From the NCBI GenBank assembly GCA_029263415.1, contig JAJCXN010000044.1, positions 248,001 to 312,000 of the forward strand: a stretch of DNA of 64,000 nt, read 5' to 3'. Below are positions 3,787-62,929 of this stretch, piece by piece (the first letter of the stretch is position 1; each line of letters opens with the position of its first letter). The stretch comes from Acidobacteriota bacterium (GTDB lineage Bacteria; Acidobacteriota; Thermoanaerobaculia; Multivoradales; Multivoraceae). The notes under the pieces are model-generated. The model did no database searches, had not been told where the DNA came from, and was given only the letters and a program-made list of their open reading frames with translations. The translations under genes were made by a program, and so were the position numbers.

Positions 3787-4320
3787 ATGTTGAATCTCAA
3801 AAGAAACCGCCTCGTTGGCCTTGGACTTCTGGCCCTCGTTGCCCTGTCGTTGCCAGCCTTGTCGTCCCCCGCGATCGCCCAAGAATCCGAAGAGGTGGAG
3901 TTTCGCCACTTCTTAGAGCACTACGAGATGGTGCGATTGGAACTACTCAACGACACGTTTCAGGCAACATCCGGGCACGGGCGCGAGATGCTGCAAGTGC
4001 TGACGGGCCTAGCGGGGAACTGGTCTGCAGATCGAGCTGGGGTTGCACCCGAGAACGGGAAAGCCGCTCAAGAGCTACTGCCGGAACTCACGGCGGCAGC
4101 CACCGAGCTATCCTCGGCAAAGGACATCAAGGCGGTACGCGACGCTTTCTATTCACTCTCCAAACCGCTGGTGCGCTACCGCAGCTTGCTGTCCGGAGAC
4201 CAGCCGGCAGTGGCCTATTGTCCGATGGCGAAACGCTCGTGGCTGCAGCCCGGAACGAAGCTCGGGAACCCCTACTACGGTCAGTCGATGCCCACCTGCG
4301 GCGAGGTCGTGGAGGGATGA
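3787..4320 (+). CDS. DUF3347-type periplasmic copper-binding protein
   Basis: A 177-residue secreted protein. The ATG at 3787 is preferred over the one at 3754 because an AGGAAAG ribosome site lies just before it and it begins directly with the signal peptide ('LALVALSLPALSSPAIAQ'). The mature part has the DUF3347 layout: an alpha-helical segment, 'RDAFYSLSKPLVRY', then 'YCPMAKRSWLQPGTKLGNPYYG' split around the conserved CPMA and NPYYG motifs, and a final 'MPTCG'. This domain is found alone or fused to the C-terminus of CusB-type adaptors and in copper chaperone-like proteins, so a copper-handling role beside cusA is likely. The exact function is unproven. Confidence 0.8.
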   Translation: MLNLKRNRLVGLGLLALVALSLPALSSPAIAQESEEVEFRHFLEHYEMVRLELLNDTFQATSGHGREMLQVLTGLAGNWSADRAGVAPENGKAAQELLPELTAAATELSSAKDIKAVRDAFYSLSKPLVRYRSLLSGDQPAVAYCPMAKRSWLQPGTKLGNPYYGQSMPTCGEVVEG

Positions 4321-4410
4321 GCGTTTGGTGTGCACTGACCCGATCGCGCGTATCGTCGCTCCGCAGCAGAAGCAGCAACTCTGCACTGCTACATCAACCC
4401 TGGAAGCACC

Positions 4411-6597
4411 ATGAAAGCCAATAGCAAAGCGTCCTCACCCATCAGTCGCCGCGCACTGACCCGGCGAACGCTCTTGCGCACCGCAGGCGCACTCGGCGCC
4501 GTCGCCGGCTTCGACACCCTCTTGCCGGCCTGGGCTAGGCCCGGGATCGACGGGCTCGCTGCACGCAATGAGCTCACCGGCACGAACTTCGACCTTGAGA
4601 TCGCGGACACTCCATTCCTCGTCGACGGCAAGCGCGGCAGCGCAGTGACCATCAATGGGACGGTGCCCGGCCCCATCCTCCGCTGGCGTGAGGGCGACCA
4701 GGTCACTCTGAATGTGACCAATCGGCTCAACGAAGACACATCGATTCACTGGCACGGCATTCTGCTGCCACCAACCATGGACGGTGTTCCCGGCATCAGC
4801 TTCCCGGGTATCAAGCCGGGGCAAACCTTCCGTTACCAGTTTCCCCTGAAACAAGCAGGGACTTACTGGTACCACAGTCACTCGAATCTCCAAGAGCCGG
4901 TCGGCCACTATGGCCCACTGGTGATCGACCCCAAGGGCATAGACCCGGTGAGCTTCGATCGCGAGTATGTGGTGGTGCTCTCGGATTGGTCCTTCGTGAG
5001 CCCTCACCGCATTTTCGCGAAGCTAAAGAAGATGGGCGACTCCTTCAACTTTCAACAGCGCACAGTGGGTGACTTCCTGCGCCGCGCCTCCAAGCAAGGC
5101 TTAGGAGAGGCGGCCAAGGATCGAAGGATGTGGGGGCAGATGAGAATGGCGCCCACCGATATTGCAGATGTCACCGGCGCCACCTTCACCTACTTAGTGA
5201 ACGGCCTGGGACCTGAAGACAACTGGACTGGACTCTTCGAGCCCGGACAGCGCATCAGGTTGCGCTTCATCAACGCCTCCGCCATGTCGATCTTTAACGT
5301 CCGGATTCCGGGACTGCCAATGACCGTTGTGCAGGCTGACGGGCTAAATGTCCGTCCGGTGGAAACCGATGAGTTCCAGATCGGCACCGCGGAGACCTAC
5401 GACGTGATCGTTCAGCCGGAAGAACATCGAGCGTTCACGCTGGTCTCGGAGTCGATCGATCGGATGGGCATGGGTCGCGCGACATTAGCGCCAGAATTGG
5501 GAATGCTGGCGCCGGTGCCGGCGCTCAGAGAGCGACCTCTCCTGACCATGAAGGACATGGGTATGTCGCACGATGCCATGGGCCATGGAGCGATGGACAG
5601 CGGCGTCCAGGATCCGTCGCCAGACCACAGCAAGATGGATCATGCTCGGGCATCAGCTGACAAAGCGGACTCTGGAGCAGTGGACCATGCAGCGATGGGT
5701 CACGGGTCGATGGACACCAAGACCACCGAAACCAAGGTCGATCACACAGCCATGGACCACGGCGCAATGAAACACGAAGAGTCCGTTGCGCCAACGCCAG
5801 AAGTCGACCACAGCACCATCGACCACGGTGCAATGGACCACTCCAAGATGGATCACGGATCCAAGGATTCTCCCAGGGTAGAGCAGGAGGCCGCGGATCT
5901 CGATCACAGCACCATGAACCACGGTGCTCAAAGCGACGGCATGAGCGGCGATCACTCCATGGATCCGACGAGTACCCACGAGCACCCGAAGGGGCCAGGA
6001 GTCGCCAACACCGCCATGGATCCGAGCGATCGCCTTGGTGAACGCGGTGTCGGGCTCGAGGATGTACCGCACCGGGTGCTGGTCTATACCGATCTCGTCG
6101 CGCTCGACGAGAATCCAGATCTGCGCCATCCCGAACGCGAGATCGAGCTGCATCTGACCAGCAACATGGAACGGTACATGTGGTCGTTCGACGGAGTGAA
6201 GTTCTCAGAAGTCTCGGGGCCGATTGTTTTCCACCAGGATGAACGCCTGCGCTTAACGATGGTCAACGACACCATGATGCCGCACCCAATTCACCTGCAC
6301 GGCATGTTCTTTGACGTAGTGAACGGCCAGACAAATCACAAGCCGCGCAAGCACACGATCGTCGTCAAGCCCGGCGAGAAACTCGCTGTCGACATCACCG
6401 CGGACGCAGTTGGGGACTGGGCCTTTCACTGCCATCTGGTGTACCACATGGAAGCAGGCATGTTTCGGGTGGTCTCGGTCAAGCCACGCCCGAACGGCAA
6501 CGGCCATGAACAGCATCGAATGCAACAAGATCACAGCGACCATGGACAACACGACGGCCACGGTGCCGTCGGTGCCGTTGGGACCGTGATCCGATGA
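4411..6597 (+). CDS. pcoA: Multicopper oxidase, CopA/PcoA copper-resistance family
   Basis: 728 residues. The N-terminus carries a Tat signal ('TRRTLLRTAGALGAVAGF'), as expected for an enzyme exported with copper loaded. Type 1/2/3 copper ligands are visible: 'IHWHG' and 'YWYHSHS' in the first cupredoxin domain, and 'HPIHLHGMFF' plus 'FHCHLVYHMEAGM' in the last. Between domains 2 and 3, about residues 375-530 are a Met/His/Asp-rich insert with many copies of a DHxxMDHGxM-like repeat, likely a copper-storage segment. The enzyme oxidises Cu(I) to less toxic Cu(II) in the periplasm. The insert is longer than in plasmid PcoA. The stop overlaps the pcoB-like start by 4 bases. Confidence 0.93.
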   Translation: MKANSKASSPISRRALTRRTLLRTAGALGAVAGFDTLLPAWARPGIDGLAARNELTGTNFDLEIADTPFLVDGKRGSAVTINGTVPGPILRWREGDQVTLNVTNRLNEDTSIHWHGILLPPTMDGVPGISFPGIKPGQTFRYQFPLKQAGTYWYHSHSNLQEPVGHYGPLVIDPKGIDPVSFDREYVVVLSDWSFVSPHRIFAKLKKMGDSFNFQQRTVGDFLRRASKQGLGEAAKDRRMWGQMRMAPTDIADVTGATFTYLVNGLGPEDNWTGLFEPGQRIRLRFINASAMSIFNVRIPGLPMTVVQADGLNVRPVETDEFQIGTAETYDVIVQPEEHRAFTLVSESIDRMGMGRATLAPELGMLAPVPALRERPLLTMKDMGMSHDAMGHGAMDSGVQDPSPDHSKMDHARASADKADSGAVDHAAMGHGSMDTKTTETKVDHTAMDHGAMKHEESVAPTPEVDHSTIDHGAMDHSKMDHGSKDSPRVEQEAADLDHSTMNHGAQSDGMSGDHSMDPTSTHEHPKGPGVANTAMDPSDRLGERGVGLEDVPHRVLVYTDLVALDENPDLRHPEREIELHLTSNMERYMWSFDGVKFSEVSGPIVFHQDERLRLTMVNDTMMPHPIHLHGMFFDVVNGQTNHKPRKHTIVVKPGEKLAVDITADAVGDWAFHCHLVYHMEAGMFRVVSVKPRPNGNGHEQHRMQQDHSDHGQHDGHGAVGAVGTVIR

Positions 6598-46703: not shown

Positions 46704-48440
46704 CTAGCAAGGTTCGGTGCCAGTCGGTTCTTCTGCCTGCATCGGCACCAAAGCGACACGTTTGGTGTAGCGGGTGCGGACCGCCTCGATCTGGGGCAGC
46801 TCAAACGCAGCACGCTGTTTCAGCAAGGGTGAGGCGGTTTGTGCGGCGGATAAGCTGCTGTTGATCAGCCAGGCCCAGGGCTCGATGCCAGCGCGGCGCA
46901 GGTCTTCTTGCAAATTTGCCGCTTCCAGCACCGGAGTGGTTTCCGCCAAGGTCACAATCATCACCTTTGTTCGCGCCGGGTCTTGCAACTGCATCATCGG
47001 CGTGGCGTTGTGTACGTCCGGCTCGGCATGACGGACCACTTCGCGGTGATAAGCCCCGGTGGCATCGAGAAGGAGCAGGGTGTGGCCGGTTGGTGCGGTG
47101 TCCATGACCACAAACTTCGAATCGGCCTCGCGGATGCGGCGCGAGAATGCCTGGAACACCGCGATTTCTTCTGTGCAGGGCGAACGCAGGTCTTCTTCCA
47201 GGATGGCACGGCCTTCGGTATCGAGATCTTTGCCTTTGGTAGCCAGAACATGCTGGCGATAACGTGCGGTCTCTGCCTGAGGATCGATGCGGCTGACTTC
47301 CAAGTTGTCCAGGGGACCGACCAGCGTGTCGGTCAGGTGAGTGGCAGGGTCTGAGGTTGTTAGATGTGTGTGGAGGCCCCGTTCGGCGAGCGTCCGCGCC
47401 ACCATAGTCGCCAGAGTGGTTTTGCCGACGCCGCCCTTGCCCATCATCATTATCAGGCCACGACCCGTTTCAGCGAGTTCATCAATCAACGACGACAACG
47501 GTGCAAGGTCCACTGGTTTGGCAAGCGCATCGGCTACGACGTGCGTGACCTCGTCCTTTTCGCTGAAAAGGCTGGTTAGAGCCTGGACGCCGATCAGGTT
47601 GAATGCCTTGAGCGGCAGTTGGTCGAGGGGCAGATCGCACAGCGCGGCGGGCATGCTGGCGATGGCTGACTGCTCACGGCGATAGATGGCCGTTGCCAAC
47701 GCGTCATTGACTGCCTCGCTTTCTGGCAGCACACCGTTGACAACCAGGTTCTGCCTAGTGAGACCGATAGCGGACAATTCCTCGTGCGTGCGTGCAACCT
47801 CGTCCAGTGCAATTTTCTGCGCGCGGGCGACCAAAATCAGGCGCGTGCGCTCTGGGTCGGAAAGTGCGTTGACCGCTTCAGCGTAACGCTGGCGTTGCTT
47901 TTCAAGGCCTGCCAGCGGGCCAAGGCACGAGGCTCCCTCCGGGTTCTTCTCGATGAAGCCGCTCCACGCGCCCGGAAGTTGCAGCAGACGGATGGTGTGA
48001 CCGGTCGGTGCCGTGTCAAAGATGATGTGATCGTAGTCGGCGATCAAGCGCGAGTCTGTCAGCAACGCGGTGAACTCGTCGAAGGCCGCGATTTCGGTGG
48101 TGCAGGCTCCGGAGAGCTGTTCTTCGATTCCTTTAACAATGTCTTCAGGCAGGGCGCCGCGCACCGGGCCGACTATGCGTTCGCGGTACTGTTCCGCTGC
48201 CTGTTGTGGATCGATTTCTAGGCCTGATAGCCGAGCTACGGCGGAAATGGTTGTGATTTTGTTGCCGATGTCCTGGCTGAATACCTGACCGACATTGGAC
48301 GCCGGGTCAGTGCTGACCAGTAGTACTTTCTTCCCCTGCCCGGCCAGGTAGATGGCGGTGGCGCAGGACAATGAGGTCTTGCCAACGCCGCCTTTTCCAG
48401 TGAAGAAGAGGAACGCGGGTGGGTCTTGAAGAAACAGCAT
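46704..48440 (-). CDS. arsA: ArsA arsenite-stimulated ATPase
   Basis: 578 residues, the normal size of the duplicated bacterial ArsA. Each half has a deviant Walker A, 'FTGKGGVGKTSLSCATA' and 'MMGKGGVGKTTLATMVA', and a switch II-like 'DTAPTGHTIRLLQLPGAWSG' / 'DTAPTGHTLLLLDATGAYHR'. ArsA accepts As(III) from ArsD and energises an ArsB-type membrane channel. No arsB or acr3 is present in the window, so either the partner is elsewhere or the pump is incomplete. It lies 143 bases after arsD in the minus-strand arsRDA order seen on R773-like plasmids. Confidence 0.94.
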   Translation of the reverse strand: MLFLQDPPAFLFFTGKGGVGKTSLSCATAIYLAGQGKKVLLVSTDPASNVGQVFSQDIGNKITTISAVARLSGLEIDPQQAAEQYRERIVGPVRGALPEDIVKGIEEQLSGACTTEIAAFDEFTALLTDSRLIADYDHIIFDTAPTGHTIRLLQLPGAWSGFIEKNPEGASCLGPLAGLEKQRQRYAEAVNALSDPERTRLILVARAQKIALDEVARTHEELSAIGLTRQNLVVNGVLPESEAVNDALATAIYRREQSAIASMPAALCDLPLDQLPLKAFNLIGVQALTSLFSEKDEVTHVVADALAKPVDLAPLSSLIDELAETGRGLIMMMGKGGVGKTTLATMVARTLAERGLHTHLTTSDPATHLTDTLVGPLDNLEVSRIDPQAETARYRQHVLATKGKDLDTEGRAILEEDLRSPCTEEIAVFQAFSRRIREADSKFVVMDTAPTGHTLLLLDATGAYHREVVRHAEPDVHNATPMMQLQDPARTKVMIVTLAETTPVLEAANLQEDLRRAGIEPWAWLINSSLSAAQTASPLLKQRAAFELPQIEAVRTRYTKRVALVPMQAEEPTGTEPC

Positions 48441-48583
48441 GGTGAAGCCTTTTCAATGAATGAGCGATGGCAGCAGGTGCCGTTGCCGTCCGGCGACAAG
48501 GCCGGTAGTGAAGGCGAACTTCCGGCGCACTACTCAGCCAGCGGGCCGGCGATATCCGCGGGATTCAGGGTCCTACCCGTGAC

Positions 48584-48901
48584 CTACGATGCTGCGGTAG
48601 GAACACCGATCCAGGCGGCCAGTTCATCGCGGGTGGGGTAACGCCCGCTTAGCAATACGTCGCCCCCCACGAGGATCATAGGGAGCGATTCCTGCCCGGA
48701 ACGCTGCAGGACCCCGTTCACCGTAACGTTTTCGGTAAACGCCAGCGGCTGCTGCCCGAGGTTAAAACGTGTTATGTGAGCACCTTGTTGCTTGGCCCAG
48801 TCCACATCGGCGGCAAAGGTAACCAATTGCTGATCTACGTCCATACCGCACACACCAGTGCCGCAACACATAGCCGGGTCAAATATCTCGATGGTTTTCA
48901 T
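48584..48901 (-). CDS. arsD: ArsD arsenic metallochaperone
   Basis: 105 residues from ATG 48901, with TTGGAG before it; the longer frame from 48955 adds no homologous sequence. It has the conserved beginning 'MKTIEIFDPAMCCGTGVCGM', with three cysteines equivalent to C12, C13 and C18 that bind As(III) and pass it to ArsA. The rest is the thioredoxin-like fold ('VDWAKQQGAHITRFNLGQQP', 'LPMILVGGDVLLSGRYPTRD'). The extra C-terminal Cys pairs of R773 ArsD are absent, as in many chromosomal forms. It also can act as a weak repressor. Confidence 0.92.
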   Translation of the reverse strand: MKTIEIFDPAMCCGTGVCGMDVDQQLVTFAADVDWAKQQGAHITRFNLGQQPLAFTENVTVNGVLQRSGQESLPMILVGGDVLLSGRYPTRDELAAWIGVPTAAS

Positions 48902-49085
48902 TTCGATACTCCAAGTAGGGTTGAAAAAGGATAGTTGGGATGTCTGCTCTCTCACTGGCCTGAAGAAGGATGCGAATCGCGATGCGCTTGCGTTGAACGA
49001 GCGCGTTCGGGAGTGCCGCTGGTCGCAGGCGATCTGGGAGCACCGATTGAGAGAGCCTGGTGGTTACGTACTGCGTCAGGGCGGA

Positions 49086-49433
49086 TCACAGCGCTGCGAC
49101 CAAGACTTTTGCCCGTCGCAATGCACTTTCTGCGAGGCAATAGCAGACTCGAGGCCCATCCACAGTACCCCGCACGAGGCCGGCCTTCTTGAGAGTCTTG
49201 AGGTGTTGAGAGACTGTCGACTGCGCAAGAGAGAGATCGTGGACGAGATCGCCACAAAGACATTCTCGCTGCCGAGCGAGGATACGGAGAATCTTCACGC
49301 GGGCCGGATGTCCGAGAGCTTTTGCGAGCGCAGCGAGCTCTTCATCGGCTTCGTTGCCTTCGACCGGCCGTAAATCTGGGCTCTTGTCTTCGGGAGGGCA
49401 GTCGTTGGTCACTGGAATTGCTTCATCGTTCAT
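49086..49433 (-). CDS. arsR: ArsR arsenic-responsive repressor
   Basis: 115 residues from ATG 49433; the ORF extension to 49586 would overlap arsC antisense and is rejected. The winged helix-turn-helix core is '[20 protein letters not shown]', '[20 protein letters not shown]' and 'GPRVCYCL'. The helix-3 metal-binding motif is 'RECLCGDLV', the ArsR CxC pair that binds As(III) and releases DNA. It is divergent from arsC with an 83-base gap between them, so it probably controls both arsRDA and arsC-aquaporin. Confidence 0.9.
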
Positions 49434-49516
49434 CGTCGATATACGATAGCATAGCCACCTCCTGGAGGCGCCCGCGAAAGCGCTTCTTGGTCCCCAGAAA
49501 TTGAAGGAGTGCTTTG
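49434..49516. promoter_or_regulatory. arsR/arsC divergent control region
   Basis: The 83-base gap between divergent starts contains two CGATA boxes (49437-49441 and 49444-49448) in an AT-rich patch just upstream of arsR, a candidate ArsR operator overlapping the arsR promoter, and the arsC ribosome site AAGGAG at 49504-49509. No unique -35/-10 pair could be fixed. Confidence 0.4.
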
Positions 49517-49953
49517 GTGAACCCCGCAAGACCACGTTCCATCCTTGTTCTGTGCACCGGAAATTCCGCTCGAAGCCAGATGGCACAGAGCTATCTTGGT
49601 CGCCATCTCGGCGACAGAGTTCGCGTCTATAGTGCCGGTACCGAGCCCGCGAGTCAGGTGCATCCCATGGCCCGAACTGTTCTTGAAGAGGCCGGGTTCG
49701 ACATTGGTGACCGCAGGCCCACTCACTACAGTGAGTACCTCGGGCACCTCGACGTCCACACGCTCGTCACCGTTTGTGATGGTGCAGCAACGTCTTGCCC
49801 TTCTGTTTGGCCAGGTCTCGTCGAGCGGCTGGCGTGGCCATTCGACGATCCAGCAGCATTCGAGGGTTCCGAAGCCGAGCAACTCGGCAAGTTTCGCAGC
49901 ATTCGCGATGCAATTGAGATGAAGTCCAAAGAGTACGCCAAGCAGCAGCTCGG

Positions 49954-49957
<4 letters not shown>
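49517..49957 (+). CDS. arsC: ArsC arsenate reductase, LMW phosphatase/thioredoxin type
   Basis: 146 residues from GTG 49517, seven bases after AAGGAG. The phosphatase-like P-loop is '[19 protein letters not shown]', and two further cysteines follow in '[18 protein letters not shown]', the Cys82/Cys89 relay of thioredoxin-coupled ArsC. The enzyme reduces As(V) to As(III) for export. Its stop overlaps the aquaporin start by 4 bases, so As(III) formed here was probably meant to leave through that channel in the original operon. Confidence 0.92.
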
Positions 49958-50654
<697 letters not shown>

Positions 50655-50703
50655 AAACTCCGATGCTCGTTGTTAGCTCGGCCAATCAGTGCGGGCTGAA
50701 CTC

Positions 50704-52260
50704 ATGACGGAGAAACTGACTCTGGAGTTGCGCCCTGTCCTTCCCGAGGCTGTAGGGACACAGGATGCCTGCATTCAACGCCTCACAGACCTACTTCGTG
50801 CCAAGGAAGGAATTGGCAACGCGCATGTACTTGCGGATAGCTCGCCCGATCGAATCTGCGTTCACTACGACCCTGGGCGAGTTTCAACCGGTCAGGTCCG
50901 ACAACTAGCGCAGCGGGCCGGGGCTGATCTGGCTTCTCGGTATGGCCATGCGTCCTTCTCCACCGCTCCCATGACAGCTCGCCGAGCACGATGCGTCTCG
51001 TCTCGCGCAAGCAGGGTGCCTGGCGCTATCGAGGCCATTGCCTCACCCAGTGGCAGTCTGCGGATCGAATTCGATCGACGGCAAACTGACCAGGATGCCA
51101 TCTTGAGGGATGTTGGCGAAATCGTTCAGCTCAGTAGAACAACAAGCACCACAACCCACGATTCGTCGCCACGGACCAAGGGCACCCACGATGCCGATGA
51201 CCATAGTCCTCTCGGCGGGACGGTTGAGCTTGCGTTCACTCTTGCTTGCGGCACTCTACTCTTGGCGGGATGGCTCCTGTCCTTTCTGGCCGGTGTCCAT
51301 CCGTGGGTTTCGACCAGCCTGTTTGGTGCGGCCTCCTTTTTTGGCGGTTTCTTTCCTGCGCGCGAAGCAATCGAGAATCTTCGAACGGGGACCCTAGAGA
51401 TCGATTCCTTGATGCTGGTCGCCGCAGCGGGCGCCGCATCTCTCGGGGAGCTAGCAGAAGGGGCTCTGCTTCTGTTCCTGTTTAGTCTTGGTCACGCACT
51501 CGAGCACTTTGCGATGGGTCGCGCGAAGAGGTCTATCGAAGCACTCGCCGACATAGCGCCCACATCAGCTGAAGTTCGTCGGGGCAACTTCTTGGAGACC
51601 GTGCAAATCGACCGGCTTGTCGTCGGCGACGTTGTTGTGATCAAACCAAACACACGGGTTCCCGTGGACGGCCTGGTCATTATGGGGGAAAGCAATGTCG
51701 ATCAGGCTCCGATCACCGGCGAAAGTGTTCCCGTGGCGAAGCTGGCACTGGCCAACCCTCCCAACACTGGTGAGCAGGCTGAGCGCGTCGATTCACAGCA
51801 TCGCGTGTTCGCGGGAACGATCAATCAAGATGGTGTGCTTGAAGTCATGGCAACCAAGTTGTCGAGCGAATCCACTCTGTCGCGCGTGGTTGAACTGGTC
51901 CGCGAAGCTGAGACCTCCAGATCGCCAACACAGCAATTCACCGACAGGTTTGAGCGCTACTTCGTGCGGGCCATCTTGGTATCGGTGTTTTTGCTGCTGT
52001 TCGCCTGGGTCGTCAGGTCCGAGTCGTTCAGCACATCTTTCTACCGAGCGATGGCCGTACTGGTGGCTGCCAGTCCCTGTGCGCTGGCGATCGCCACTCC
52101 CAGTGCGGTTCTGAGCGGCATAGCGCGAGCCGCAAAGGGAGGAGTGTTGGTCAAGGAGAGATTGAGCAGTGGGATCAAGGAAGCGCTCGACGAGTTTCCG
52201 ATTGGCGCTTTCATTCCGACGCGGACCCACTTTGCTTCTGCGAGGCCACCACCGATGTAA
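50704..52260 (+). pseudogene. P1B-4-type (SPC) metal ATPase lacking the catalytic domains
   Basis: From ATG 50704 (a GTG at 50689 is an alternative) there is a divergent, possibly doubled ferredoxin-like N-terminus, a His/Asp-containing linker, then TM helices, the actuator 'APITGESVPVAKLALANPPN' and the membrane metal site 'VAASPCALAIATPSAVLSGI' (SPC, about residue 457), diagnostic of P1B-4 Co/Zn/Cd pumps. After 'AAKGGVLVK' (about 52155) the family sequence ends and 34 unrelated codons follow. DKTGT, the nucleotide domain and the last helices are lost, so no ATPase activity is possible. Confidence 0.85.
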
Positions 52261-52523
52261 CGGCCTGGCGAGGGCTACCCGCCGGGAATCAACCCAAGGA
52301 CAGCCGCATGAGACCACCGCGGATCGACAAAGGTGGAGGGCGGAGCTGTGTCTTGCCGGCGTCCCCTGAATGTTCACGGGTGGGTCTCGGACCGCGGAAG
52401 ATCACAGGTTAAAGCCTCGGGATTCTGGCCGAAACTGGGCGCCCATCGATCTCCGTCACGTTGAAAGAAGGACCATGCGAATCTTCTGCGGGGTTGCCCG
52501 GCGACTATTACTAGAAACCAGAT
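52261..52523. other. Breakpoint region after the truncated ATPase
   Basis: The stretch from about 52155 to 52520 has no supported gene. It looks like leftover of an inserted element that cut the ATPase, but no inverted repeats or transposase motifs could be identified by eye. Confidence 0.35.
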
Positions 52524-53171
52524 TCACCAAGCCGTGGTATCACCACTCTCGAACCCATCGGCGAAGATCGGCTCTTCTACGATAGCGCGGATGATCAGGT
52601 CGCCGGTGATGCCAAGGCTGCTGGCCTCCACCCAACCGATCCCATCGATTTCCAAGTAATTCAGATTGGCTTGGATCCCATCGGCGTCCACGCCGACTGT
52701 CGGCAGACCGTCGTGCGGCAATTCTAGTCCTACCCGCACGGTTCCGCTGACCGTGGGTGCATTGTCGAAAACGATCTCTTGAAGAGCAGCATCACTGCCA
52801 AAGAGTTGAAACTCCTGGCTCTGAAATAGCAGCGGACCTGGGCTGTCGGTCCCGGCGCTGTCATCCCAAATCAACACACTGATGAATTGGCTTACGGGGC
52901 TACCGCCGAACAGTAGTCGAACGGCTGACAGTCGGTAATCAGTCGTTGGGCTGGGAAGAATGAGGCGTGCCGCAACCGTGTCCCCGGTAACGAAGCCCGC
53001 AGGAAAAGTCGCAGCCCCGCTAGTCGGCCAGGAATCATTACCCACCTCCTGGGCGGCGACAGTTTTTGGGTGAAGGCCGCCGATTACCCAAGCAAGGAGT
53101 ACCAGGAGGACGAATCGGTGTAGTTCGCGATGTCCCACAGCAATCGTGGAGACACGAATAGAGCTTTGCAA
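52524..53171 (-). CDS. Secreted protein with DGFESGDTTAW C-terminal tail
   Basis: 215 residues with a basic N-terminus and hydrophobic signal ('FVLLVLLAWVIGGLHPKTVA'). The mature part is beta-rich ('DYRLSAVRLLFGGSPVSQFI', 'SGTVRVGLELPHDGLPTVGV') without recognised domain. It ends 'FADGFESGDTTAW', the same tail as the protein at 56458. Such DGFESGDxxAW endings recur on secreted proteins of Acidobacteriota and some other bacteria and are probably a sorting or short structural signature. Function unknown. It marks the return to chromosome-like sequence on the right of the resistance genes. Confidence 0.65.
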   Translation of the reverse strand: MQSSIRVSTIAVGHRELHRFVLLVLLAWVIGGLHPKTVAAQEVGNDSWPTSGAATFPAGFVTGDTVAARLILPSPTTDYRLSAVRLLFGGSPVSQFISVLIWDDSAGTDSPGPLLFQSQEFQLFGSDAALQEIVFDNAPTVSGTVRVGLELPHDGLPTVGVDADGIQANLNYLEIDGIGWVEASSLGITGDLIIRAIVEEPIFADGFESGDTTAW

Positions 53172-53352
53172 AGCCTACCTCCAGCCAAATCAACCAACAG
53201 GATTGTGCCAAAAAGGGTAGCACACAGGATCAAAGCGATCTTCGATCGCGCTGGAGTACTACCAGCTACCTGCTCGTGAGATCGAACAGGAGACGCCGAG
53301 AACCAGCGCCGAGGGGCTCAACCGACTGTGTTCTTTTTCGTAGCTGTCACGT

Positions 53353-53668
53353 TGCTTGCCGAGTAGGCCGGCACAGTTTGTTGACGGCGGTCGCCGCAGC
53401 TTCTCGGGAGTTCCGGGTCTTGGGAGGGAGTGCCGGTGGAGGCTAGGCCCTTGAGCGACTCCGAGCTTCTGGTCGTGCTCGGAGTGGCCCTCGGGACGCC
53501 CTCGTTTTGCGGAACCCGACTCTAGCTGTCCCGGTTCCAGATCTCGGTATGGATCTTCCACCCCTCGGGGGTGCGCTGCATGATGTTCAGCCATTTGCCA
53601 CCGTCTTCGGAGACCTCGCCGGTCGCCTTGTCGGTCGGCCGATCGGCCCAGGTACCCCACAAGAAGGC
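53353..53668. repeat. Partial duplicate of the 3' end of the 61994-62929 gene
   Basis: This stretch is nearly identical to 61810-62140. From 53510 to 53668 the match is almost base for base at an offset of 8472, covering the last ~145 coding bases of the two-domain lipoprotein gene (minus strand, TAG at 53522-53524). The left half matches with small indels. Identity stops sharply at 'AAGAAGGC' (53668). It is a pseudogene fragment and one arm of a long direct repeat. Confidence 0.85.
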
Positions 53669-54385
53669 GCGGTTGGGCGAGCGGCGGGGACCGGTCTTCG
53701 AGGGCCAGAGCTACACCAATTGAGAGCTGCTCGACCTGAACGGGTCTCTGAGGGGGCCCGCCACGAGCAATGCAACTCGACCTCACCCCGCTCCGTCACG
53801 ACCACGGATTCTACGCAGCACTTCCAGACAAGCCAGCCGTTCTCCCGGCCCAAAGTGTCGACGCAGGCGGCTTCCTGCCAGTAGGTTCCGGCTCGCACTG
53901 CCGGCGTCTGTGCCTCTGCGGTGGGGATGACGCCCCCGGCGCGTACTCTCTCCGATTCGTTCAACACCCCTGTCTCACCCCTGTCTCCCCTTGTCTCGCT
54001 GGCGCCTCATCGAAGGATCCACCACGTGGTTTGGGGCAAGCAAACCCCGGGCCAAACTCAGCCGGAAGCACGGGTCAGACAACTCTCAGAACGAAGTAAC
54101 CCGAAGTGGGTTTGCAGGACCGGTTCAGACGCTAGACCCACGTACGGGCCTGAAGCCGAAGGGCATGCCTCGCTTTGCGCTATCGACCAATGGGATGTTG
54201 CCTTTGGAGTGAAGGAGCACAGTCCTCTCAACTTCGTAGCGCTGGTGCAAGTCCGTTAGAATTGTGCCGCTAGAAGTGTGGGAGTTCTCGATCTTCAGCG
54301 GCACCACAGGTCGAAAACGTAGCGACGCACGTACGTGTAGTCAGCTGCCATCTAACTATAGCTAGCATCAACGAGGAGTCTGCAA
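53669..54385. other. Gene-poor stretch before the selenoprotein operon
   Basis: No gene is supported. A minus-strand frame from 53967 encodes an unrecognised sequence ('GTYWQEAACVDTLGRENGWL', 'WKCCVESVVVTERGEVELHC') that runs into the repeat and may be a fragment of an older gene. Tandem 11-base repeats ACCCCTGTCTC lie at 53966-53987 with a third degenerate copy to 53997. The promoter for the downstream operon should be between 54250 and 54370, but I cannot define it. Confidence 0.4.
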
Positions 54386-55093
54386 GTGAGAGAGTCTAAG
54401 TGGTATCTTGGACGGTGGATGTTGGGCCTCTGCTTGGCCGTCTCCGCGACGCCGGCGGCTATGGCCGAACAAATCGAGTTGTCACTACGAGGGCTCACTT
54501 GACAGAGCTGTGGCGCGGCGGTCGTCGCGCACGTTCAAGAACTCGAGGGAGTTAGCTCTGCATCCTTTGCGCTGCTGGAGGCGGAGGTTGCAATCGACTT
54601 TGATGCCGATTTACTTTCGGTAGATCGGCTCCTGGAGGAAGCGCAAAGCGCGGCGACCCAGGAGGTCACGGTGGTTGTGGGGGCTGGCCAAGGGTTCTAT
54701 CTACCGGCAGAAACCTTTCCTCCCGGCCTCGACGTAGCGTGGTTGACGCGCGACGGCTCCTCCAAGCCTTTGGAACCGGAGGTGCTCGCGGGCAAAGTAA
54801 CTGTGTTCGATTTTTGGGCCAGCTGGTGCGGACCCTGTCGCGACCTCGATCGCGCGTTGCTCGAACGGCTCGAACGGAACCCCAGCCTTGTGGTGAGAAA
54901 GTTCAACGTCGTCGACTGGAACTCAGACGTAGCGAAGCAGTATCTGCGAAATGCAAATGGTCTTCCATACGTGGAAGTTTGGCGTTTCGACTCGAAGAAG
55001 GGGCCGCGCAAGGTTGGCTCGGTCAACGGGCTCGATCTTGAGCGACTCGATCGCCTGATCGAACGCGCCGGCAGCTATGAAACCCACAAGTAG
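54386..55093 (+). CDS. Candidate selenoprotein: HMA (UxxC) plus thioredoxin domain
   Basis: GTG 54386 follows GAGGAG by seven bases. The frame runs 235 residues to TAG 55091 with one internal stop, TGA at 54500-54502 (residue 39). Layout: signal peptide ('GLCLAVSATPAAMA'), HMA domain 'IELSLRGLT-U-QSCGAAVV' continuing 'ELEGVSSASFALLEAEVAID', then a thioredoxin-like domain with 'VFDFWASWCGPCRDLDRALL' and cis-Pro 'NGLPYVEVW'. The TGA stands exactly where HMA domains have the first Cys of CxxC. A hairpin with GGUC loop starts 10 bases after it. Standard gene calling would report only 54671-55093. The likely role is a periplasmic metal-binding redox protein; substrate unknown. Assembly error TGT/TGC to TGA is the alternative. 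Confidence 0.8.
54508..54534 (+). promoter_or_regulatory. Bacterial SECIS-like hairpin for UGA 54500
   Basis: Stem GCGCGGC (54513-54519) pairs fully with GTCGCGC (54524-54530), including one G-U, around the four-base loop GGTC (54520-54523). Extra pairs below a bulged G512 extend it. The loop begins 18 bases after the UGA, within the 16-37 base window for bacterial SECIS, and GGUC equals the SelB-recognised loop of E. coli fdhF. Confidence 0.75.
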
Positions 55094-56162
55094 ACAACAT
55101 CAGGCCGTTCAGCCGCTGGTCGGCCGCGGTGCGATCTTCGTGCTGGTGGCCTTAGCGCTGCTCATGCTCATCCCCGCAGCCTGGGCCTCCACAGGCTGAA
55201 CGGCCTGAACGAATCCAAACCTCCGGGCCGGAGGTACGCACTTACAAGTCGAACTCCAACCGGGCTCGTTTCGGCTCGACTTCAATTGGATCGGGACGTC
55301 AGTCGAAACCTCCCATGACGTCGAAGCCTCGCAGTATGAACCTGGGGTACCACTAGAGGCTCAGCCTCGAGCACACCATGTGGACCTGCAGCTCAACACG
55401 CTGGTCACGCGGGTCAGCTACGCGCTCACCCGTCGCATAGCGCTTGAACTGGAAGCGCCCGTTCGGAGCGTAAAGACCAGGGCTGCCTTCGAGGACGCAC
55501 GCGGGACGCTTCGAGATGATTTCTCAAGCATTCATCACCGAAATCAGACCATAGACGGTATCGGAGATCTCACGCTCGCCACCCGTTGGAGAGTCTCACC
55601 TGTTTCTGCAGCGGCGGAACCTACATCCGGGTCCACGCCGCGCCGCTGGCTCGCTGATCTCGTTATCGGGGTGTCAGTCCCAACCGGGAAGACCGAGGAG
55701 GACCCCTTTGCACTCGGTGCTCAAGGACTCGAACACGAGCATGTCTTTTTCGGCTCTGGGACCGTTGATCCAAGCTTGCGGCTGGAGCTGCATCGGAGCG
55801 GTCAGCGGGCCGACATCTACTCCTGGGCAGGAGGCTCGGCAGCTCTTAAGAGCAACAGCAAAGGGTATCGCCGCGGCTTGTCGGGCTCAGCGGGAATCGG
55901 CGCCTCGACCACGTTCGGAATGCTGCGCACCTCATTTCAGGTACAGCTCGAGCTGCAGTACGCCGAGCCTTCGAGGTGGCGCTCCCAAGCCGCTCGGAAC
56001 AGTGGCGGCACGGATGTCGTCGCGGCACTCGGCATTGCCCATCGGCTTCTCGGCGGGTTAGTTCTACGCGGTCAGCTTCGAATCCCAAAGAACATCGCCG
56101 CAAAGAGCGGGGTCCTCGAACCCAAGACTGTGGCGCTTCTGGGGCTCAGCTATTCAAGGTGA
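55077..56162 (+). CDS. Candidate selenoprotein with UxxU motif: secreted barrel-like protein
   Basis: ATG 55077 overlaps the upstream gene by 17 bases. The frame stays open to 56162 (361 residues) except for TGA at 55197-55199 and 55206-55208 (residues 41 and 44), giving 'AAWASTG-U-TA-U-TNPNL'. A clear signal peptide ('AIFVLVALALLMLIPAAWA') ends just before the first TGA, so the long frame, not the GTG at 55380, is the real gene. The mature chain is beta-barrel-like ('GTHLQVELQPGSFRLDFNWI', 'WLADLVIGVSVPTGKTEEDP', 'VALLGLSYSR' ending). A hairpin with a GGGCC loop follows both UGAs within SECIS range. UxxU would replace a CxxC at the mature N-terminus and likely binds metal or does redox. No non-TGA stop occurs. 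Confidence 0.68.
55219..55235 (+). promoter_or_regulatory. SECIS-like hairpin shared by the two UGAs of the UxxU gene
   Basis: ACCTCC (55219-55224) pairs perfectly with GGAGGT (55230-55235) around the loop GGGCC (55225-55229). The loop begins 26 bases after the first UGA and 17 after the second, so one element could serve both. The loop starts with GG as bacterial SECIS require. Weaker than the upstream one because the stem is only six pairs. Confidence 0.5.
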
Positions 56163-61699: not shown

Positions 61700-61809
61700 T
61701 GAACAACACAGATTAGCACGCGCACCGACGCCGCAAAGCTGGTGGTCACGGCCAGAAGATACCGCCCAGTAGGATCACCGTTCACGCAGTTCAACGCGGG
61801 CCTGGTCAC

Positions 61810-62140
61810 CTTGCCTACCGAGCTGGCCGGCACAGTTGTTGGCAGCGTTCTCCGCAGCTTCTCGGGAGTTTCGGGTCTTGGGAGAGAGCGCCGGCGGACT
61901 CTACGGCCAGGGGAGATGGACCCTGGAGCGACTCCGAGCTGCTGGTCGTGCTCGGAGTCGCCCCAGGACGCCCTCGTTTTGCGGAACCCGACTCTAGCTG
62001 TCCCGGTTCCAGATCTCGGTATGGATCTTCCACCCAGCGGGGGTGCGCTGCATGATGTTCAGCCATTTGCCACCGTCTTCGGAGACCTCGCCGGTCGTCT
62101 TGTCGGTCGGCCGATCGGCCCAGGTACCCCACAAGAAGGC
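61810..62140. repeat. Source copy of the 53353-53668 repeat
   Basis: It contains the 3' end and downstream sequence of the lipoprotein gene at 61994-62929 and matches 53353-53668 in the same orientation. Identity ends at 62140. The two copies bracket 8.1 kb that includes the selenoprotein operon, the kinase and the sigma factor. Confidence 0.85.
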
Positions 62141-62929
62141 CCAATCTCCCTCGACCTCGAGCCCCAGGGTCGGGCCGGATCCGTCGGGCTTCTGGGTGGC
62201 CCAACTGTCTTCGAAGTGCTGGCGAAGGGCCTCTGTGCCCTGGACCGTCGGCGCGTCGGCGGGCATCCGGATGCCGTCCTCGGCGTAAAGTGCTACCAGC
62301 GCGTCGGCATCTTCCGCGTTGTTCGCCGCGTCCCAGCCCGAAGCGGCAGCCAGGGCCGCTTCTTCGTCGGGGCTTGACGGCATGAATTCTCCCGGGAGCT
62401 CGCCCCGGTCGAAGTCGGCGGCTGCGCTCGTCGAGGGCGCGTCGTTGTTCCAGACGTCGATCGCGTACTTCCACCCATCGTCGGTCTTGCGCACGATGCT
62501 GACCCATTTGCCCCTCGCTTCGGTGGTCTCGTCCGAATCCGAGGTGGTCTTGTCAGTGAAGGTTCCTCGAACCCAGGCCCAGTTGCCCGCCACAGCCAGG
62601 TCGTCGATCGGGTTGTAGCCTTCACTGTCGCCGGCCGCCCAGCCGGCCTCGAAGCCCGCGCGACAGGCTGCCGCGCCGATCATGGCAGGCTGGCCCGCGC
62701 CGAGACGGATCGCGTCGGCTGTGAACATTCCCATCATGCCGTCGATATCTTCGACATTGGCGATCCCGTCCCAGGACTCGGCCAGAGCCCGGACGGCCGC
62801 TACCTCGTCGACCCCCACGTCGGCTGCCGGTGCGGCGTCTTCTGCGGCCTCGGAAGAGGCTTCTTCGGCTTGACTACAGCCGAACAGAACGAGACTCGTC
62901 AAGAGTGCGAAACCAAGTACTTTCTTCAT
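61994..62929 (-). CDS. Lipoprotein with two DUF4440/SnoaL-like domains
   Basis: 311 residues, with AAAGGAGT before the ATG. The lipobox is 'LVLFGC'. After an acidic Ala/Glu linker come two related NTF2-like domains: 'VAAVRALAESWDGIANVEDI', ending 'GWKYAIDVWNNDAP', and 'AALAAASGWDAANNAEDADA', ending 'GWKIHTEIWNRDS'. Each has the DUF4440 outline (helical start, DADAL/GMM, 'W..IV/IMQRT..GWK'). The internal duplication is old since identity between halves is modest. Function unknown; ligand binding at the envelope is possible. Part of its 3' end is duplicated at 53.4-53.7 kb. Confidence 0.75.
   Translation of the reverse strand: MKKVLGFALLTSLVLFGCSQAEEASSEAAEDAAPAADVGVDEVAAVRALAESWDGIANVEDIDGMMGMFTADAIRLGAGQPAMIGAAACRAGFEAGWAAGDSEGYNPIDDLAVAGNWAWVRGTFTDKTTSDSDETTEARGKWVSIVRKTDDGWKYAIDVWNNDAPSTSAAADFDRGELPGEFMPSSPDEEAALAAASGWDAANNAEDADALVALYAEDGIRMPADAPTVQGTEALRQHFEDSWATQKPDGSGPTLGLEVEGDWAFLWGTWADRPTDKTTGEVSEDGGKWLNIMQRTPAGWKIHTEIWNRDS

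Follow-up and report, generated by a model that had tools for sequence, protein, structure and literature searches.

Whether a reading frame that is interrupted by two closely spaced TGA codons encodes a secreted protein with two selenocysteines, and what such a protein might do at the cell surface, is the question raised by a locus in a 64,000-nucleotide stretch of DNA from an Acidobacteriota bacterium (hereafter, the window). The frame extends from an ATG at 55077 to a terminal TGA at 56160-56162 without any internal TAA or TAG; a signal peptide, the motif U-T-A-U, and a barrel follow one another within 55077-56162, and the two putative selenocysteines (Sec), residues 41 and 44, lie a few residues from the predicted signal-peptide cleavage site (Table 1). 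A previous sequence-only reading had described a frame of 361 codons, broken by two TGAs nine bases apart and by no TAA or TAG, and an overlap with a preceding Sec gene; the frame was recovered at exactly these coordinates, and the overlap amounts to 17 bases (TAG at 55091-55093, ATG at 55077).

Table 1. Features of the two-gene locus, in window coordinates
Feature	Position	Strand	Remarks
Putative double-selenocysteine outer-membrane barrel gene	55077..56162	+	361 residues; 17-base overlap with partner gene
Signal peptide region, residues 1-40	55077..55196	+	Cleavage site judged by eye, no predictor program
First putative Sec UGA, residue 41	55197..55199	+	
Second putative Sec UGA, residue 44	55206..55208	+	
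SECIS-like hairpin	55219..55235	+	Loop starts 29 nt past UGA 1 and 20 nt past UGA 2 (first bases)
Predicted 12-stranded beta-barrel, residues 65-361	55269..56159	+	AlphaFold2 pLDDT 84.9, pTM 0.81
His80, invariant	55314..55316	+	
His100, nearly invariant	55374..55376	+	
His153-His154, invariant pair	55533..55538	+	
His220-x-His222, invariant HxH	55734..55742	+	
Partner gene: signal peptide, HMA, thioredoxin (WCGPC)	54386..55093	+	Start GTG 54386 assumed; stop TAG 55091-55093
Partner in-frame UGA, putative Sec residue 39	54500..54502	+	Motif L-T-U-Q-S-C
Partner SECIS-like hairpin	54510..54532	+	Apical loop GGTC 54520-54523

The two TGAs are not a product of chance, because they are conserved: a scan of a public genome collection yielded 24 related loci, which are spread over Myxococcota, Acidobacteriota, Planctomycetota, and unnamed bacteria, and the aligned positions read TGA..TGA in 21 of them, TGC..TGA in one, and Cys..Cys in two. 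When 396 genomes of the window's phylum were searched at the protein level, 10 had matches, with two TGAs in three genomes (G000, G137, and G278) and one in a fourth (G066), and a profile search of this phylum (E up to 1e-8) gave matches in 32 of 396, of which only the four known ones exceeded 300 bits, the rest being distant forms without TGA. A profile search around a planctomycete found 28 places in 27 of 392 genomes, which partly overlap those of the 24-locus scan, with two TGAs at 23 places, one at 1, and none at 4 (several of these partial); its counterpart around a myxobacterium found 66 places in 62 of 377 genomes, with two TGAs at 51, one at 3, and none at 12. Homologs with TGA..TGA are hosted by Acidobacteriota, Myxococcota, and Planctomycetota, and a tblastn search of viral contigs detected no relative.

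The motif itself could be read in 75 distinct homologous ORFs, 14 of 108 profile matches having been dropped from the counts because they fell short of it. UxxU is represented by 63 of these ORFs, CxxU by 3, UxxC by 1, and CxxC by 8, and the codons at both positions are exclusively TGA, TGC, or TGT. Removal of near-duplicates (>80% identical over the first 100 residues past the motif) left 61 nonredundant members, i.e., 49 UxxU, 3 CxxU, 1 UxxC, and 8 CxxC, so that Cys or Sec occupies both position 41 and position 44 in 61 of 61. The placement of the pair right after a signal peptide, as proposed from the sequence, also holds for the homologs, which start further upstream than the region near 55380 and carry a signal peptide. 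On a tree of 59 members with the motif positions masked, the UxxU, CxxU, and CxxC states need 6 changes compared with 10.7 in shuffles, and Sec and Cys have therefore been exchanged repeatedly.

The genome from which the window derives has a complete Sec machinery: it encodes SelA (457.7 bits), SelB (329 bits), and SelD (249.2 bits, in a single frame including the neighbour) and carries a tRNA-Sec (71.1 bits; called tRNA-SeC with the anticodon tca by ARAGORN). Among the 67 host genomes, SelB scored above its cut-off in 51 of the 59 that have a Sec form versus 1 of 8 with CxxC (G1064; Fisher p 5e-5). The 8 of 59 Sec-form genomes in which it stayed below, many of them MAGs of unstated completeness, gave partial or fragment matches (G948, G1020, G547, and G1168) or matches at the level of elongation factors only (G914, G1086, G913, and G742).

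Two readings dispense with selenocysteine altogether. The presence of an open table-11 ORF at 55380-56162 would fit TGAs that are true stops or artefacts, with translation beginning at an internal start such as GTG 55380; this start would, however, delete the first barrel strand (residues 65-81), and the reading was rejected because the part upstream of it, with its signal peptide and [UC]xx[UC] motif, is kept across three phyla while Cys and Sec are exchanged, which makes it highly improbable. A variant code with TGA as tryptophan would keep the frame open, as any sense reading of TGA does, but TGG was encountered at neither motif position, TGA also terminates the window ORF and many homologs, and the Sec machinery of the genome is complete; this explanation was rejected as well and has next to no chance of being correct. 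A real double-Sec translation, in which both stop codons are read as Sec, is almost certain.

With respect to the recoding signal, a perfect ACCTCC/GGAGGT hairpin within SECIS distance of both UGAs had been claimed. The inverted repeat exists (arms 55219-55226 and 55228-55235) and can form a stem of 7 bp (ACCTCCG/CGGAGGT) capped by the loop GGC or, alternatively, one of 6 bp capped by GGGCC. In the bacterial SECIS model, as set out in PMC13188914, the apical loop follows the UGA at 16 to 37 nt and has a G in its first two positions; the window hairpin agrees with this model in its GGC loop and in its distances of 29 and 20 nt, so that the claimed spacing was right for both UGAs. The strength of the claim lies in the family rather than in the individual fold. 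Free folds of 55180-55260 and 55197-55245 favour a different pairing, and the shuffle z-scores of the three stretches folded (-0.76 to -1.08) are not significant; it is only across homologs that the element becomes significant and qualifies as a SECIS candidate.

A stem of at least 6 bp with an apical loop that starts at +27 to +31 from UGA 1 was found in 39 of 53 nonredundant Sec members (15 of 22 from planctomycetes and 24 of 31 others), the remaining 14 lacking a 6-bp stem at this fixed place. The same stem occurred in a mean of 9.5 and a maximum of 17 of 53 members in 400 synonymous shuffles, in 1 to 6 of 53 at eight control places of the same genes, and in 0 of 8 CxxC homologs at the same place. 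A G is located within the first two loop positions of 32 of the 39 hairpins, and the commonest loop is GGTC (13 cases); the SECIS of Escherichia coli fdhF has a GGUC-type loop. An unconstrained scan for the best hairpin scatters, with loop starts from +25 to +48.8 (10th to 90th percentile) and the G rule obeyed in 29 of 53. When 40-nt windows of the 53 members were compared with synonymous shuffles, fold stability peaked directly past UGA 1 (combined z of -6.4, -5.6, and -4.5 at offsets 0, 6, and 12) and dropped to -2.6 and -2.0 at offsets 18 and 24, the lowest value at any other offset from -30 to +180 being -3.7, at +126. Stem pairs covary within each register, e.g., +26:+35 with GC in 8, TA in 2, CG in 2, and GT in 1; the covariation table comprises 35 of the 53 Sec members, 5 of which have a stem shorter than 5 bp in all registers tried, and in the aligned group the loop lies 28 to 30 nt after UGA 1 and 19 to 21 nt after UGA 2. 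Since the hairpin keeps its place in Sec members, is missing from it in CxxC homologs, and fits both UGAs by distance, a single element seems to recode both of them.

The overlapping upstream gene, in whose product Pfam recognizes, above its cut-offs, one HMA (35.5 bits) and one thioredoxin (28.6 bits) domain, most likely specifies a selenoprotein as well, because its in-frame TGA stands in for the first HMA cysteine and is followed at 20 nt by a hairpin with a GGTC loop. Cys is found at this position in the partners of loci L146, L152, L154, and L178. The fold of the partner hairpin has an energy of -13.5 kcal/mol (54509-54534), and its shuffle z is -2.53 for 54501-54560 but only -0.22 for 54490-54550.

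Linkage to thioredoxin is a frequent property of the family: a thioredoxin gene or domain on the same strand within 600 nt accompanies 29 of 61 oriented loci (22 upstream, 7 downstream or fused), namely, 22 of 29 in Myxococcota, 6 of 8 in Acidobacteriota, and 1 of 24 in Planctomycetota, and an additional partner, in L038, is cut by the end of the contig. Judged by eye, the partners have an HMA domain, have a Cys/His-rich stretch, or are fused behind a His-rich linker. Seven partners without HMA (L028, L032, L039, L143, L145, L151, and L158) show a Cys/His-rich pattern, C-x-H-x-(V/I)-P ... HxVxESQC, and in L142 and L150 the thioredoxin is fused behind the barrel and followed by a domain that looks cupredoxin-like by eye. 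The HMA domain of the planctomycete partner in L166 contains two in-frame TGAs (T-U-P-S-G-U, at about 1135-1170 of the oriented frame), and this protein, whose gene neighbours one for a UxxU barrel, may have two Sec as well.

Metal-related genes are present at several loci. At L146, MerR-like (133 bits, cut-off 150.85), MerTP-like (127 bits, cut-off 180), and P-type ATPase genes make up a mercury-type cassette, and a DF-family (seleno)protein is encoded next to the first two, upstream of the UxxU barrel (3935-4669, minus strand; 104 bits, cut-off 70). CusA/CzcA-type genes occur in 7 and MerR-type genes in 6 of the 61 loci; as raw counts, taken without a genomic background, these neighbours are no more than suggestive of a metal role.

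The window itself contains further features of this kind and others. A putative arsenic cluster, judged by eye, lies at 46704-50433 (ArsA-like ATPase, ArsD-like, ArsR-like, arsenate reductase-like, and channel genes). A P-type ATPase ORF in which an E1-E2 domain is recognized (50689-52260, plus strand) ends ahead of the usual phosphorylation motif and looks truncated; no DKTG-type motif was found in any frame of 51501-54400. The segments 53346-53668 and 61805-62140 are 88.8% identical over 338 columns, the latter being situated at the end of an ORF on the minus strand (61994-62929) and the former resembling a decayed partial copy.

The C-terminal part of the protein had been described as barrel-like, and AlphaFold2 indeed predicts a 12-stranded barrel for residues 65-361, with a pLDDT of 82.4 from 27 sequences and 84.9 from 53. 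The best structural match of the model is the COG4313 channel 4rl8 (Z 24.7, rmsd 2.7 over 250 residues), followed by FapF (5o65, Z 23.8), and Foldseek also ranks these two on top. COG4313 corresponds to a Pfam family of phenol-degradation channels. At the sequence level, the window barrel matches no Pfam family at E up to 1 and no NCBIfam model, the barrel part of 27 members has no Pfam or NCBIfam match at E up to 0.01 (thioredoxin-type models do hit the fused thioredoxin domain of two members), and a sequence-profile search of PDB chains revealed no relative at E up to 0.1. As no Pfam match exists, the modelled barrel is classed as a fold-alike of COG4313 channels and not as a member. The fold match to the copper outer-membrane protein PcoB was dropped as evidence, its score (Z 13.1) being no better than that of unrelated barrels.

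Six histidines stand out in the barrel. Among 53 aligned members, invariance is complete for His 80, 153, 154, 220, and 222 and nearly so for His100, and the full set of six occurs in 48 of the 50 Sec members whose sequence spans these positions, as well as in the 5 nearer of the 8 CxxC members. The eight include the own-phylum matches L005 to L010, a distant CxxC barrel group. In the distant barrels L005, L008, and L062, CxxC is followed by further Cys, and TGA is absent; since they also lack the six His, they were excluded from the same functional family. The strand order, with both ends periplasmic, places the six His of the predicted model within or beside the first three loops that face outward, which are well defined (pLDDT 91 to 94). 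Confidence is low for the Sec segment, with a pLDDT of about 66 for residues 41-60, a range that includes residue 51, with which residue 1 of 4rl8 aligns, and below 50 for residues 31-41. Within this model the Sec pair may meet the barrel His.

We consider the protein, with a probability of about 0.6, to be an outer-membrane barrel that binds or transports soft metals and whose Sec pair is upkept by thioredoxin. The two-gene unit would provide two selenoproteins, the HMA-thioredoxin in the periplasm and the barrel in the outer membrane, both UGAs of the latter being recoded by the one SECIS hairpin just downstream. The Sec pair would be carried by an N-terminal segment reaching into the barrel lumen in the manner of COG4313 channels and would bind, together with the invariant His, a soft metal such as Cu, Hg, or Ag; the thioredoxin domain would maintain the selenols in the reduced state, and the HMA or His/Cys-rich domain would exchange the metal. 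The soft-metal reading is based on the six conserved His, the linkage to thioredoxins with HMA or Cys/His-rich parts (29/61), the L146 cassette, and the CusA/CzcA and MerR neighbours. Metal binding, the identity of the metal, the lumen position of the Sec pair, the direction of transport, and the redox partnership are inferred. The scarcity of thioredoxin neighbours in Planctomycetota (only 1/24 loci) counts against the thioredoxin-partner model. The fully specified version, a metal gate made of a diselenol plug and six His, serviced by a dedicated HMA-thioredoxin protein that is sometimes a selenoprotein too and encoded with one SECIS for two Sec, is offered tentatively and at somewhat less than even odds.

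The Sec pair might also be a redox centre whose selenol/diselenide relays electrons from the periplasmic thioredoxin to an outer-membrane substrate, e.g., peroxide, selenite, an organometal, or a protein disulfide. UxxU stands in for CxxC, the usual redox motif, a WCxxC thioredoxin is linked more often than any other gene, in several loci as a fusion, and most uncharacterized selenoproteins are probably redox proteins according to a review (PMC13188914); yet the invariant His and the HMA domains and His-rich linkers of the partners indicate a metal, and neither Pfam nor NCBIfam recognizes a catalytic domain in the barrel, so that we regard a pure redox function as rather unlikely. A conventional COG4313-type channel that passes small hydrophobic molecules, in which the Sec pair merely gates or anchors the N-terminal plug, would suit the closest fold, whose family is tied to the uptake of hydrophobic molecules in the structural report (PMC4493636), but it leaves the invariant His and the HMA-thioredoxin partners without explanation and is improbable. 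If the soft-metal reading is true, selenium chemistry would serve to capture or expel soft metals at the cell surface.

Irrespective of the substrate, a widespread double-Sec family would be added in phyla that, judging by the literature searched, have seen little selenoprotein study, and in the outer membrane, for which few selenoproteins have been listed so far. Because both UGAs are located just past the signal peptide, such genes would be annotated without their N-terminus. The conserved hairpin makes the recoding of two UGAs, nine bases apart, by one SECIS directly testable.

The UxxU motif had been called very rare and without a described example in this kind of outer-membrane protein. 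The rarity stands, although UxxU has already been listed for three families, i.e., Prx-like PF00578, the metal-binding NF041115, and FmdB (PMC13188914). With regard to the second statement, two Sec-bearing outer-membrane barrels are listed in the same source, the GSU2204/MtrB-PioB type NF041027 and the FCYXU TonB-dependent receptor NF049945, neither of which corresponds to the window barrel: they have a single Sec and different motifs, and their models matched none of 27 barrel members at E up to 0.01. The 119-entry catalogue of 2026 (PMC13188914) contains neither the window barrel nor a UxxU-NP motif; other papers, preprints, or database entries may describe the family. NF041115, MerT_CopZ_Se (NF045683), and further selenoproteins of metal resistance share with it Sec in a metal-resistance setting, and NF041115 also shares UxxU, but they are HMA or MerT-type proteins that the window barrel does not match; the HMA part of the partner reaches 35.3 bits against NF041115, below the cut-off of 95.

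Among structurally characterized proteins, the COG4313 channels (Pput2725, 4rl8) and FapF (5o65) resemble the window protein in the predicted 12-stranded barrel, and 4rl8 also has a segment ahead of the first strand, the N-terminal 14 residues of which fold into the lumen and occlude it (PMC4493636). The described channels of both types lack Sec, in contrast to the window family with its conserved Sec/Cys pair and His set. A parallel for the combination of UxxU and HxH is provided by the copper transporter OprC, in which a plug thiol and a barrel-wall HxM form an outer-membrane metal site (CxxxM-HxM; PMC8610252); OprC is a 22-stranded TonB-dependent receptor without Sec, and the likeness is one of analogy only. 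The double-Sec barrel looks like a new selenoprotein family that has been assembled from known kinds of parts.
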